Below are positions 1,626 to 4,626 of a stretch of DNA of 64,000 nucleotides, piece after piece (within the stretch, counting starts at the first letter, position 1; the number at the start of each line of letters is the position of its first letter). Source of the stretch: Ferruginibacter sp. (lineage in GTDB: Bacteria; Bacteroidota; Bacteroidia; Chitinophagales; Chitinophagaceae); contig JANXSK010000027.1 in assembly GCA_025352695.1 (NCBI GenBank), positions 1 to 64,000 on the forward strand. The letters run 5' to 3'. The position numbers and the translations under genes are program-made. Below the pieces are notes generated by a model. That model saw nothing but the letters and a program-made list of their open reading frames with translations, had not been told where the DNA came from and searched no databases.

Positions 1626-1704
1626 AATTCAAGTTCTTCGGATTTTTTCGGACTTTCAAACCCATTGTTGGCTGTAAATAATTTATTACTTAAAGATCTA
1701 TTTC

Positions 1705-1740
1705 AATTCGTGTAATTAGTGCCTTAAAATATCGTGTATT
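1705..1740 (+). repeat. 36-bp AATTCGTG-type repeat, copy R1 (diverged)
   Basis: Matches copy R3 (2666-2701) at 31 of 36 positions, in the same orientation. Only the first of the three AATTCGTG sub-units is intact. It lies just upstream of the putative dtd promoter. Confidence 0.75.
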
Positions 1741-1759
1741 TAAAAATAGAATACGTCGC

Positions 1760-1771: not shown

Positions 1772-2224
1772 ATGAGGGTTGTAATACAAAGAGTAACGGA
1801 GGCAAGTGTTACCATAGACAATAAGGTAGCATCTTCCATCAGCAAAGGCTTGCTGGTATTGGTTGGAATTGAAGATGCAGATACAAAAGAAGATATTGAA
1901 TGGCTTAGCAATAAAATTGTTCACCTCCGCATTTTTGATGATGCAGACAAGGTGCCGAATTTATCGATCAAAGAAACGGGTGGCGATATTTTACTCGTTA
2001 GCCAGTTTACCTTACATGGCAACACAAAAAAAGGCAACCGGCCTTCGTATATACGTGCCAGTAAGTCTGTTGTAGCAATACCAGTGTATGAAAAAATGAT
2101 TGCCCAACTGGAAAACGATTTTGGAAAAAAAATATTTACCGGCGTGTTTGGTGCAGATATGAAAGTGGCACTGGTGAATGATGGGCCGGTTACTATTTGG
2201 ATTGACTCGAAGCACAAGGAATAA
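1772..2224 (+). CDS. dtd: D-aminoacyl-tRNA deacylase
   Basis: Hydrolyses D-aminoacyl-tRNA (and Gly-tRNA-Ala in this family), recycling mischarged tRNA in the cytosol. The 150-residue length is normal for bacterial DTD. Both family signatures are present: SQFT at residues 77-80 and NDGPVT at 136-141 (the cross-subunit Gly-cisPro motif), so the protein should be an active homodimer. It is followed 10 bp after its stop by the GxxExxY cassette, then a mazG-like gene and glyS, all on the plus strand. glyS next door is a sensible translation-fidelity context, though the repeats between the genes suggest separate promoters. Confidence 0.96.
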   Translation: MRVVIQRVTEASVTIDNKVASSISKGLLVLVGIEDADTKEDIEWLSNKIVHLRIFDDADKVPNLSIKETGGDILLVSQFTLHGNTKKGNRPSYIRASKSVVAIPVYEKMIAQLENDFGKKIFTGVFGADMKVALVNDGPVTIWIDSKHKE

Positions 2225-2234
2225 TACAAATTTT

Positions 2235-2270
2235 ATAACACGAATTTTTAAGGCACGAATTACACGAATT
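2235..2270 (-). repeat. 36-bp AATTCGTG-type repeat, copy R2 (left inverted repeat)
   Basis: Exact reverse complement of R3 over 36/36 positions. It contains three CACGAATT sub-units with the same spacing as in R3. Confidence 0.95.
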
Positions 2271-2281
2271 AAATACTCGTT

Positions 2282-2656
2282 ATGACCGAGATTATTTTAA
2301 AAGAAGAATCTTATCAGTTGATTGGAATTTGTATGGAAGTACATAGAGAACTTGGAATGGGGTTTAAGGAAATAGTCTATAAGGATGCCTTAGAATATGA
2401 ATTCAAAAACCACAGTATTCTATACAAAAGAGAAAAAGAATATAAAATTGAATATAAAGGAATCACCCTTCCTCATAGGTATAATGCTGATTTCATTGTG
2501 TATGGTTCGATAATCCTGGAAGTAAAAGCTTCCTACATAATTGTAAATAATTTTGTGAAACAAACCATCAATTACCTCAAAGCTTCAGGTTTGCAATTAG
2601 GTATCATTGCCAACTTTGGTGAACAATCATTTGTTTCAAAAAGAGTTGTATTTTAA
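2282..2656 (+). CDS. GxxExxY family protein, PD-(D/E)XK nuclease-like
   Basis: A 124-residue protein with the family-defining motif G27-F-K-E30-I-V-Y33, preceded by HRELG (21-25). Downstream, D70 followed by E80-V-K82 fits the D...ExK catalytic core of PD-(D/E)XK nucleases; the family corresponds to the Pfam group PDDEXK_3. The predicted fold suggests DNA or RNA cleavage, but no activity is established to my knowledge. The length is full for the family and all key residues are present, so the gene appears intact. It is the only gene between the perfect 36-bp inverted repeats R2 and R3, and further copies of the repeat flank the neighbouring genes. This links the nuclease-like protein with the repeats, possibly as the agent that mobilises or processes them. 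Confidence 0.88.
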   Translation: MTEIILKEESYQLIGICMEVHRELGMGFKEIVYKDALEYEFKNHSILYKREKEYKIEYKGITLPHRYNADFIVYGSIILEVKASYIIVNNFVKQTINYLKASGLQLGIIANFGEQSFVSKRVVF

Positions 2657-2665
2657 AATACGCAC

Positions 2666-2701
2666 AATTCGTGTAATTCGTGCCTTAAAAATTCGTGTTA
2701 T
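2666..2701 (+). repeat. 36-bp AATTCGTG-type repeat, copy R3 (right inverted repeat)
   Basis: Reference copy of the family: three AATTCGTG sub-units beginning at repeat positions 1, 10 and 25. An additional lone AATTCGTG at 2711-2718 lies immediately upstream of the mazG-like start codon at 2721. Confidence 0.95.
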
Positions 2702-2720
2702 TAAAAATTAAATTCGTGTT

Positions 2721-3050
2721 ATGGAAATTAAGGAAGCGCAAGAAAAAGTTGACCAATGGATAAAAACGGTTGGAGTTAGGTATTTTAATGAACTTACTAA
2801 CCTTGGTATTTTAATGGAAGAAGTAGGTGAACTTTCCAGATTGATGGTGCGAACTTACGGCGAACAATCTTTCAAAGAAAGCGACAAAGGAAAAAATATA
2901 GGAGATGAAATGGCAGATATTCTGTGGGTGTTGATGTGCCTGGCAAACCAAACAGGTGTTGATCTTACAGAAGCATTGCAAAAAAACTTTGAAAAAAAGA
3001 ATATAAGAGATGCTCAACGACACAAACACAATCCGAAATTGAATAGCTAA
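2721..3050 (+). CDS. MazG-like nucleotide pyrophosphohydrolase
   Basis: A 109-residue, all-alpha NTP-PPase of the single-domain MazG/iMazG type, expected to hydrolyse (d)NTPs to NMP and pyrophosphate, possibly for house-cleaning of damaged nucleotides. The metal-binding pattern is present: EEVGE at residues 33-37 and E63/D66 in GDEMADILW (61-69). The ATG at 2721 follows directly on a partial repeat sub-unit, so any ribosome-binding or promoter sequence must lie in repeat-derived DNA. It is followed by repeat R4 and then glyS on the same strand. Substrate cannot be told from sequence. Confidence 0.9.
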   Translation: MEIKEAQEKVDQWIKTVGVRYFNELTNLGILMEEVGELSRLMVRTYGEQSFKESDKGKNIGDEMADILWVLMCLANQTGVDLTEALQKNFEKKNIRDAQRHKHNPKLNS

Positions 3051-3095
3051 AATCTGTGCAATTCGTGAATAAAATCCATAGCCACCTTTTCTTAT

Positions 3096-3130
3096 AATTT
3101 GTGTAATTCGTGCCTAAAAATTCGTGTTAT
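3096..3130 (+). repeat. AATTCGTG-type repeat, copy R4
   Basis: Same orientation as R3, 35 bp, with one substitution and one deleted T. A further single AATTCGTG lies at 3060-3067. R4 ends 20 bp before the putative glyS -7 box. Confidence 0.85.
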
Positions 3131-3165: not shown

Positions 3166-4626
3166 ATGGCAAACGAATCAAATAATTTTGCGGAGCTGAT
3201 TGCTCATTGTAAAGAATATGGTTATATTTTTCAATCTTCTGAAATTTATGACGGACTGGCTGCGGTGTATGACTATGGCCAAAACGGTGCACAGCTAAAA
3301 AAAAATATCCGTGATTACTGGTGGAAAAGCATGACACAATTACACGATAATATTGTGGGTATTGATGCGGCTATTTTTATGCACCCTACCACCTGGAAAG
3401 CTAGTGGCCACGTTGATAATTTCAGTGACCCGATGATTGACAACAAAGACAGCAATAAAAGATACCGGGTAGATCATTTAATTGAAGCACATGCGGAAGC
3501 ATTGGCATTGGAAGGAAAAAAAGAACAAGAATTTGCACTGCTGAAAAATATGGATGCCTTGTTGGCCATAAGCGATTATGCAGGTTTAAAACAACTAATT
3601 GTTGACAACAATATAAAATGCGCTATCAGCAAAACCTGCAACTGGACAGAAGTAAGAGAATTTAACCTCATGTTCAGCACACAAATAGGCAGCGTGGCTG
3701 AAGAGAGCGATACCATTTATTTACGTCCCGAAACGGCGCAAGGTATTTTTGTAAACTTTTTAAATGTACAAAAAACAGGAAGAATGAAAATTCCTTTTGG
3801 TATTGCACAAACTGGCAAGGCTTTTAGAAATGAAATTGTAGCCAGACAATTTATTTTTCGGATGAGGGAATTTGAACAAATGGAAATGCAGTTTTTTGTT
3901 CGCCCCGGCACACAAATCGAATGGTATAATTTCTGGAAGGACGAAAGAATAAAATGGCATGAAAGCCTTGGGGTACCTGCTGAAAAATTACGCTTTCATG
4001 ATCATATAAAATTAGCCCATTACGCAGATGCGGCTTTGGATATTGAATTTGAATTTCCATTTGGCTGGAAGGAACTGGAAGGCATACATTCAAGAACAGA
4101 TTTCGATTTAACACAACACCAAACTTTTAGTAAAAAGAAAATTCAATATTTTGATAATGATTTAAAGGAAGATGGAAAGCCTTATGGTAACTACATTCCC
4201 TATGTTGTAGAAACTTCTGTTGGCCTGGATCGTTTATTTCTTACCATCATGAGTCTGGCCTATGCCAATGAAAAATGGACAAAAGAAGATGGTACAGAAG
4301 AAAGCCGTGTGGTATTACGCATCCCTGCAAAAATTGCTCCCACCAAACTGGCAATATTGCCGTTGCTTAAAAAAGATGGCCTGCCTGAAATTGCCAAAGA
4401 ACTGATGAATGATTGCAAGGGTAGCTTTATGTGTTTCTATGAAGAGAAGGATGCCATCGGCAAACGTTATCGCCGCATGGATGCGATTGGTACACCATTC
4501 TGCGTAACGATCGATCATCAGACAAAGGAAGACAATACTGTTACCATTCGTTACAGAGATACAATGGTGCAGGAGCGAATTGCTTTAAAGGATGTTAAAA
4601 AATTAGTGATAGAAAAAATTAGCTGA
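3166..4626 (+). CDS. glyS: Glycine--tRNA ligase (single-chain, alpha2 type)
   Basis: Charges tRNA-Gly with glycine. At 486 residues it is the single-polypeptide homodimeric type, not the alpha2-beta2 GlyQ/GlyS type. Class II features are visible: RPETAQGIF around 187-195, motif 2 beginning FRNE at 220, motif 3 as VGLDRLFL near 355, and an anticodon-binding domain over the last roughly 100 residues. The start matches the family N-terminus. A TAnnTTTG box sits directly upstream. It is separated from the mazG-like gene by repeat DNA, so it is probably transcribed from its own promoter. The next gene converges on it. Confidence 0.97.
   Translation: MANESNNFAELIAHCKEYGYIFQSSEIYDGLAAVYDYGQNGAQLKKNIRDYWWKSMTQLHDNIVGIDAAIFMHPTTWKASGHVDNFSDPMIDNKDSNKRYRVDHLIEAHAEALALEGKKEQEFALLKNMDALLAISDYAGLKQLIVDNNIKCAISKTCNWTEVREFNLMFSTQIGSVAEESDTIYLRPETAQGIFVNFLNVQKTGRMKIPFGIAQTGKAFRNEIVARQFIFRMREFEQMEMQFFVRPGTQIEWYNFWKDERIKWHESLGVPAEKLRFHDHIKLAHYADAALDIEFEFPFGWKELEGIHSRTDFDLTQHQTFSKKKIQYFDNDLKEDGKPYGNYIPYVVETSVGLDRLFLTIMSLAYANEKWTKEDGTEESRVVLRIPAKIAPTKLAILPLLKKDGLPEIAKELMNDCKGSFMCFYEEKDAIGKRYRRMDAIGTPFCVTIDHQTKEDNTVTIRYRDTMVQERIALKDVKKLVIEKIS

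Follow-up and report, generated by a model that had tools for sequence, protein, structure and literature searches.

A GxxExxY nuclease-like gene between inverted repeat arrays at the dtd-mazG junction of Ferruginibacter, and the correspondence between GxxExxY subfamilies and repeat units

Introduction

In the window, by which we mean the whole 64,000-nucleotide stretch of Ferruginibacter sp. DNA analysed here (from a draft genome of 4.6 Mb in 246 contigs), one short gene for a predicted nuclease stands between two perfect inverted repeats, and the whole lies between dtd and a mazG-like gene. This arrangement raises the question of what kind of element it is and whether the gene and the repeats belong together. 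An earlier note, made from the sequence alone, had proposed a self- or trans-mobilised unit, comparable in concept to REP/RAYT but with a different enzyme family. In the literature searched we found no function for GxxExxY proteins. Nor was a link of GxxExxY genes to repeats found in the open papers searched (including PMC8934634, PMC4679880, PMC3116915, PMC4990558 and PMC8049555); the family is also named in PMC12085832. When six repeat strings were compared with the literature, only the 10-base CATTCGTGGC occurred, in 20 papers whose titles point to unrelated subjects.

Results

The GxxExxY cassette of the window

The gene (2282..2656, + strand, 124 amino acids) lies downstream of dtd, which encodes D-aminoacyl-tRNA deacylase (1772..2224, +), and upstream of a gene for a MazG-like nucleotide pyrophosphohydrolase (2721..3050, +). 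The gene after mazG codes for a class II tRNA synthetase (3166..4626, +), presumably of the glycine type. The left arm (2231..2270) and the right arm (2666..2705), its reverse complement, are 98% complementary across 40 nt, and the 36-nt core is exact (2235-2270 and 2666-2701). The earlier note had described these 36 bp as exact reverse complements enclosing a single 124-residue gene and no other, and both statements proved correct. The arms are arrays of the short unit CACGAAT, with three copies each facing the gene: the units read towards it at 2239-2245, 2254-2260 and 2263-2269 in the left arm, and appear as ATTCGTG at 2667-2673, 2676-2682 and 2691-2697 in the right arm. An extra single ATTCGTG unit lies directly ahead of mazG (2710..2727), a solo arm with 85% identity to the right arm lies upstream of dtd (1704..1756), and solo repeat copies are present between mazG and the next gene (3051..3130, as 3051-3075 and 3095-3130). 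The arms are also able to form a stem in the transcript, as had been suggested, the RNA fold of 2225-2711 being 6.45 standard deviations better than 100 shuffles; no Rfam match was found within the window. We read the element as a gene in a hairpin, with the GxxExxY gene between two inverted unit arrays.

The core pattern of the window repeat, with up to 2 mismatches, was detected at 13 sites genome-wide, 9 of them on other contigs, and the reversed control gave 2. One copy (L017, G000:C113:21769-21786) was seen by eye within an apparent RNA methyltransferase reading frame.

The encoded protein

The window protein scored 121.3 bits against TIGR04256 (cut-off 35) and 108.7 bits against PF13366 (PDDEXK_3, cut-off 22). 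These were the sole Pfam and NCBIfam matches of the gene, with no transposase domain in either collection, and by these curated models the protein is a full GxxExxY family member. We placed it in a subfamily that we call YKDA after residues 33-36. Its key residues are E30, D70, E80-x-K82 and Q94xxxY98. In an alignment of 40 diverse relatives, G27, E30, Y33, E80, K82 and F112 were invariant, G25, Q94, Y98 and N111 were nearly invariant, and D70 was present in at least 90%, which bears out the PD-(D/E)XK core (D70, E80-x-K82) read by the earlier note. With the QxxxY motif, these residues resemble the RecB/Cas4-type PD-(D/E)XK core. Judged from its residues, the protein looks functional as a predicted nuclease. 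A search of solved structures gave three matches up to E = 1, none significant, the best nuclease being T7 endonuclease I (E = 0.89). A defence-system gene was rejected as a reading, as no PADLOC match was obtained, and so was a phage gene, the PHROG matches being weak (best E = 0.013, to an endonuclease family) and no phage record being found.

Values of dN/dS were 0.04, 0.07 and 0.12 in three of seven chosen relative pairs, the other four being saturated at synonymous sites, and of 66 Flavobacterium pairs, the 44 in which dS was usable had a median of 0.049. These ratios indicate that the GxxExxY gene at dtd-mazG is under purifying selection. The closest named relative found, with 84% identity, belongs to a Ferruginibacter MAG (Chitinophagaceae) and contains an in-frame stop. 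In the genus, the PF13366 model matched 42 of the 59 genomes, with between 0 and 11 matches per genome and several matches broken, and a narrower GxxExxY profile matched 120 of 247 Bacteroidota genomes. No near-identical GxxExxY paralogues were found inside one genome, the highest identity being 75%.

Inverted arms at other GxxExxY loci

Each left flank was compared with the reverse complement of its own right flank, with a threshold score of 14. The genus set contained 90 loci, 84 with full 300-nt flanks, and is a non-random draw made up mostly of higher-scoring matches. Matched inverted arms were observed at 52 of the 84 loci, against 1.9% of 6972 cross-locus pairings; by this threshold, 32 loci were without clear inverted arms. 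In direct orientation the score of 14 was reached at 19 of 84 loci, at many of which the gene stands between two complete hairpins. The same flank test on dtd reached the threshold at 1 of 30 loci, namely the window locus itself. Since the inverted layout recurs at other loci with different sequences, and around dtd at this one locus only, chance or artefact is ruled out.

These data confirm the expectation of the earlier note that other GxxExxY genes are flanked by repeats. The 36-bp sequence of the window is not a terminal repeat common to them: subfamilies have their own units and, because other GxxExxY genes carry other units, a family-wide 36-bp transposon end is ruled out. The arm units vary by locus and include CACAAAG, CGCAAAG, CGCAGAG, CACAGATT, CACGAATT and GGGAAGT, among others. 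In the 200-nt flanks of 216 loci, units made of CRCN followed by AAT, GAT, AAG or GAG were read 896 times towards the gene vs 368 times away from it, and such units were about four times rarer 450-650 nt off (293 in 401 sampling windows). Self-similarity of the flanks showed a weak peak at 8-9 nt, which was absent 400-600 nt off and around dtd.

A second set comprised 80 YKDA-type loci in named genomes, found by protein motif alone. A score of at least 14 was reached at 56 of them; these include one stretch of N and one unrelated palindrome. Direct orientation reached it at 35 of 80, and the cross-locus control stood at 14.8%, a high value because those loci share units. They belong to Bacteroidota, Ignavibacteriota and Chlorobiota, together with single MAG contigs labelled Acidobacteria, planctomycete and Lentisphaerae, for which mis-binning is possible.

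A flush target-site duplication of at least 10 nt was absent in 126 of 127 loci. Insertion with a fixed duplication was sought but not found, except at L067 (G050:C12:5536-7274), which has an exact 39-bp direct duplication at its outer ends. By eye, the L067 cassette lies near the 3' end of an apparent type I restriction specificity gene, and the duplication apparently reconstitutes the end of that gene. Ends of the type TGTCTGAAC...GTTCAGACA were encountered at several unrelated sites in another subfamily.

Protein subfamily and unit type

Between genomes, protein identity and arm similarity rose together (Mantel rho 0.18, P = 0.001, 109 loci). When pairs sharing any flanking gene were left out, rho was 0.294 with a null maximum of 0.056 (181 loci, 15,689 pairs). 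Among pairs with no common flanking gene, a cross-arm score of at least 13 was reached by 0.1-0.2% of those below 40% protein identity, by 37% at 70-80%, by 68% (27/40) at 80-90% and by one of three pairs above 90%.

The unit class was defined by the last three bases of CRCN-NNN. It could be assigned to 158 of 216 loci, 139 of which have intact proteins; 77 loci were dropped. The 83 labelled YKDA-type loci comprised 68 AAT, 15 GAT, no AAG and no GAG, one contig being counted twice (L249 is G004's L211) so that the distinct set numbers 82. The 56 non-YKDA loci comprised 21 AAG, 20 GAT, 13 GAG and 2 AAT. In the genus alone, YKDA loci had 9 AAT and 4 GAT, and the others 21 AAG, 20 GAT, 13 GAG and 1 AAT. 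The nearest protein in another genome had the same unit class in 90% of cases vs 34% for shuffled labels; with neighbours below 45% identity only, the share was 42%, not beyond shuffles. It is thus well supported that the protein subfamily predicts the unit type, i.e. that genes and repeats form a cognate association. A simple terminator is ruled out as well, as the arms are inverted around the gene, track the protein subfamily and are copied elsewhere.

L180 and L181 (G043:C1 and G007:C3) are, by eye, apparently one intergenic site, with CGCAGAG units in the one and CGCAAAG units in the other; a dialect switch in place is possible.

Gene-free copies and their number

Three dialects (D1-D3, D1 being that of the window) were counted in all 59 genus genomes. 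D1 gave 283 copies, only 13 of which lie in flanks of the 136 GxxExxY loci taken, a set that omits one G051 match and one fragment in the window's own assembly (G000). Elsewhere in the genome, D1 copies averaged 9.2 in the 13 genomes with a D1-flanked gene vs 3.3 in the other 46 (P = 7e-5), and 0.24 in the 17 genomes without a PF13366 match. The same comparison gave P = 0.012 for D2 and P = 0.03 for D3, and the number of GxxExxY genes correlated with total repeat copies per genus genome (Spearman 0.56).

The phylum test covered 247 Bacteroidota genomes including the window's own: 23 YKDA-positive, 97 with other matches only and 127 with none. The cut-off for YKDA, 140 bits, was set by us, the listed scores running from 143.0 to 136.1 at that point. 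The YKDA-cognate pattern CACDAATTNCACDAATT was present in 16 of the 23 YKDA-positive genomes (mean 13.8 copies), in 13 of the 97 with other GxxExxY genes only (mean 0.64) and in 10 of the 127 with none (0.24). The difference between the first two groups had P = 4e-10. Species phylogeny is only partly accounted for, here as in the counts for the genus. Within one family, 11 YKDA-positive genomes had 4-88 copies and 10 of 15 others had zero (P = 8e-5). The exact pattern was absent in 7 of the 23 YKDA-positive genomes. Copies were also seen apart from a matching gene: G045 has 14 D2 copies and no PF13366 match; G128, G206 and G262 have 6-9 copies without a profile match; G018 (33 D1 copies, 5 loci) and G052 (72 D1 copies, 7 loci) have no D1-flanked gene at any of these loci. 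Both kinds of genome could be explained by gene loss, by gaps in the assembly or by other spacings.

Among the neighbours listed, repeats on opposite strands at most 150 nt apart faced a common centre in 39 of 39 cases (20/20 and 19/19 in two sets); one-strand neighbours numbered 36 and 7, respectively. This centre-facing orientation is that of the arms around the gene. Intergenic placement of the gene-free pairs was judged by eye at a few sites, and three hairpins (L186, L187 and L189) appeared to lie shortly after a stop codon. The earlier note had held repeats without a GxxExxY neighbour against its proposal. Such repeats do occur, yet many of them are hairpins with the same arm orientation, which fits a REPIN-like reading.

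History of the dtd-mazG site

The genus contains 54 dtd matches in 53 of 59 genomes, and 31 loci were examined, one from each of the 30 best genomes and another, a second copy in the window's assembly, on contig C153. mazG follows dtd at 30 of the 31. A GxxExxY gene stands between them at seven, two of which are split by a frameshift (G016 and G046). At 22 loci, i.e. 21 relatives and C153 (35 nt), the gap is only 9-125 nt. Empty junctions, which the earlier note had proposed to look for, thus exist in relatives, and the cassette is not fixed at the locus in all of them. The C153 copy (L241, G000:C153:1-6000) is cassette-free and its dtd and mazG DNA is 82-84% identical to that of the window, so that it probably stems from a second strain or organism that was binned together with the first. 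Of the empty alleles, that of C153 retains one CACGAAT unit only and that of G021 a short CACGAATTCGTG palindrome. At the locus with the nearest Dtd relative (L147, G058:C352; 93%), the gap holds another gene, aspartyl-protease-like by eye.

Four loci from named MAGs (L244, which has a stop, L245, L246 and L247) also have a GxxExxY gene between dtd and mazG. In two of these a second, oppositely oriented frame of 109-113 amino acids lies between GxxExxY and mazG (L245:1909-2250 and L247:1906-2235). The gap hosts two diverged protein types, with 60-84% and 44-48% identity to the window protein over the matched segments, and both have CACGAATT-like units. In a tree of 95 proteins, the nine intact dtd-site rows (8 distinct loci) fell in a single group of 12 with weak support (83/70), and the tree requires at least two changes of the dtd-site label. 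L209 and L216, which starred forks join with three dtd-site proteins, have arms of the same kind, but their neighbours are by eye an ABC permease gene on one side and its ATPase gene on the other. L261 also belongs to the group of 12 and adjoins neither dtd nor mazG. By the site data and the tree, the cassette is old at dtd-mazG, it was lost or broken several times there, and gene and arms changed site together.

A recent hop into dtd-mazG is ruled out by the presence of the gene at 7 of 31 genus loci and in 4 named MAGs, and by synonymous sites that are saturated in most pairs. Given the lack of a general target-site duplication and of near-identical paralogues, no recent transposition of the gene was observed. 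The proposed self- or trans-mobilised unit finds support in the related gene-plus-arms units at another operon junction.

The same layout around IVP genes

In the genus, S23p/IVP genes (PF05635), which code for four-helix-bundle proteins, were submitted to the same comparison. Inverted arms were found at 18 of 30 loci and direct ones at none of 30, with a control of 3.1%. No rRNA match was obtained at any of the 30 loci. The IVP arms have a sharp period of 7, 14 and 21 nt, and the loci (L116-L145) show 7-bp units such as GTTTGGC, AGGTTGA and AGCTGTG, among others. The IVP repeats are a different repeat class with the same gene-in-hairpin layout as GxxExxY.

Discussion

The explanation that we favour, and consider probable, is that the window gene codes for a repeat-associated PD-(D/E)XK nuclease, RAYT/REPIN-like, whose cassette lies between arrays of the unit that it recognises, here CACGAAT. 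Gene and arms are found together at unrelated sites, the subfamily predicts the unit, and genomes with the matching gene carry more gene-free copies, often as hairpins. The binding and cutting of the unit by the protein, and mobilisation, are steps that we infer. The GxxExxY protein would bind its cognate units in hairpin, cruciform or single-stranded DNA and cut there, and cutting would lead to hairpins being copied or maintained in intergenic gaps in trans, as by RAYTs for REPINs. The gene-carrying copy would settle rarely, here in a short gap between co-directional genes, to be inherited for long and sometimes to decay. RNase III may cut the transcript stem, which would make the insertion tolerable.

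A homing-type element, which seems unlikely to us, would cut a gene-free hairpin and have its cassette copied into the cut by recombination, so that the gene would come to lie in the loop of its own target. Cassettes do resemble gene-free hairpins with a gene in the loop, and the two diverged protein types of the dtd-mazG gap, both with CACGAATT-like units, would suit such arrivals, as would L180 and L181, which look by eye like one site with GAG-type vs AAG-type units. An empty allele exists at the orthologous dtd-mazG site, in either a pre-insertion or a post-loss state. However, separate arrivals of the two types are not required by the tree. In addition, gene-free copies outnumber genes, as the D1 counts show, and several genes stand between two complete hairpins; both observations fit hairpin copying better.

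It is quite unlikely that the protein acts by autoregulation or on a regulon, binding the arms and dispersed hairpins as operators or processed RNA stems, with the copies arising by slippage or recombination. The arms flank the gene between co-directional genes and give a strong RNA stem, and at least three inspected gene-free hairpins closely follow a stop codon (those mentioned above, by eye), all of which would agree with regulation. Copy number, however, tracks the presence of the cognate subfamily, and conservation of the catalytic residues extends across the subfamilies sampled, although a pure regulator could do without them. That another enzyme moves the repeats and GxxExxY genes were merely caught between them is highly improbable: repeats do outnumber genes and some genomes have repeats and no detected gene, but this would leave unexplained both the subfamily-unit correspondence and the few CACNAATT copies in same-phylum genomes with other GxxExxY genes.

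For a repeat-associated nuclease, the closest functional parallel is REP/RAYT, and the analogy drawn by the earlier note was borne out by matched repeats, gene-free copies and a copy number that tracks the matching gene. As described in passages of PMC3116915 and PMC8049555, matching repeats lie beside the enzyme gene and differ between enzymes, hairpin-capable inverted pairs are found genome-wide and are more numerous with the enzyme gene, inheritance is vertical over long times, and in the published case RAYTs were not seen on plasmids. Likewise, the cognate repeats of GxxExxY adjoin the gene and vary in type with the enzyme, gene-free inverted pairs are dispersed and their copies follow the matching gene, and the gene is long vertically inherited, occurring in 4 of 72,556 plasmid records. 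Unlike in RAYTs, the enzyme is of the PD-(D/E)XK type (PF13366) and not an HUH tyrosine transposase, and therefore the window gene is not a RAYT. Also unlike REP, which is one palindrome, GxxExxY arms consist of 7-bp units in arrays, mostly with a spacing of 8-10 bp; up to 11 matches occur per genome, whereas RAYTs are described as single-copy; and the patterns counted reach tens of copies per genome, not hundreds.

In structure, the closest parallel is the 23S rRNA intervening sequence. According to PMC4990558 it measures 428 nt, its ends form a stem of 28 bp, the loop contains an S23p ORF, and heptameric repeats lie alongside this ORF. The window element is similarly small (467 nt), with a terminal inverted-repeat stem and a short ORF in the loop. 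It differs in lying between the protein genes dtd and mazG-like, in its protein family and in its unit spacing of 8-10 bp instead of 7. The ratios reported above point to purifying selection on the window protein, whereas PMC4990558 describes S23p as under reductive evolution.

MITEs are short inverted-repeat elements that carry no gene and are related to one that does, and GxxExxY gene-free hairpins bear a like relation to the gene-carrying cassette. Unlike insertion sequences and MITEs, these elements have no fixed terminal repeat and no constant target-site duplication, and no transposase domain was found in the window gene.

A broader claim, which we hold with as much doubt as belief, is that with the GxxExxY proteins repeat-maintaining nucleases were invented a second time, independently, each subfamily having its own DNA word and hairpin population, in Bacteroidota and at least some members of other phyla, and that together with IVP genes they form a general gene-in-hairpin class that includes rRNA intervening sequences and REP/RAYT as special cases. 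If our favoured explanation is right, the GxxExxY family would have a function, namely to recognise a short repeat and probably to spread it, and for a kind of intergenic repeat that is common in Bacteroidota a likely maker would be known. The match of subfamily to unit would amount to a readable protein-DNA code, and partnerships of the REP/RAYT kind would have evolved more than once, with unrelated enzymes.

The four plasmid records with a GxxExxY gene were all typed non-mobilizable. These relatives (L324-L327) come from other phyla, on Treponema, Persicobacter, Gemmatirosa and Fusobacteria plasmids, and none of the four reached an inverted score of 14. Unit-like repeats were seen nearby by eye, in the form of an 11-bp inverted pair, a hairpin and direct pairs.
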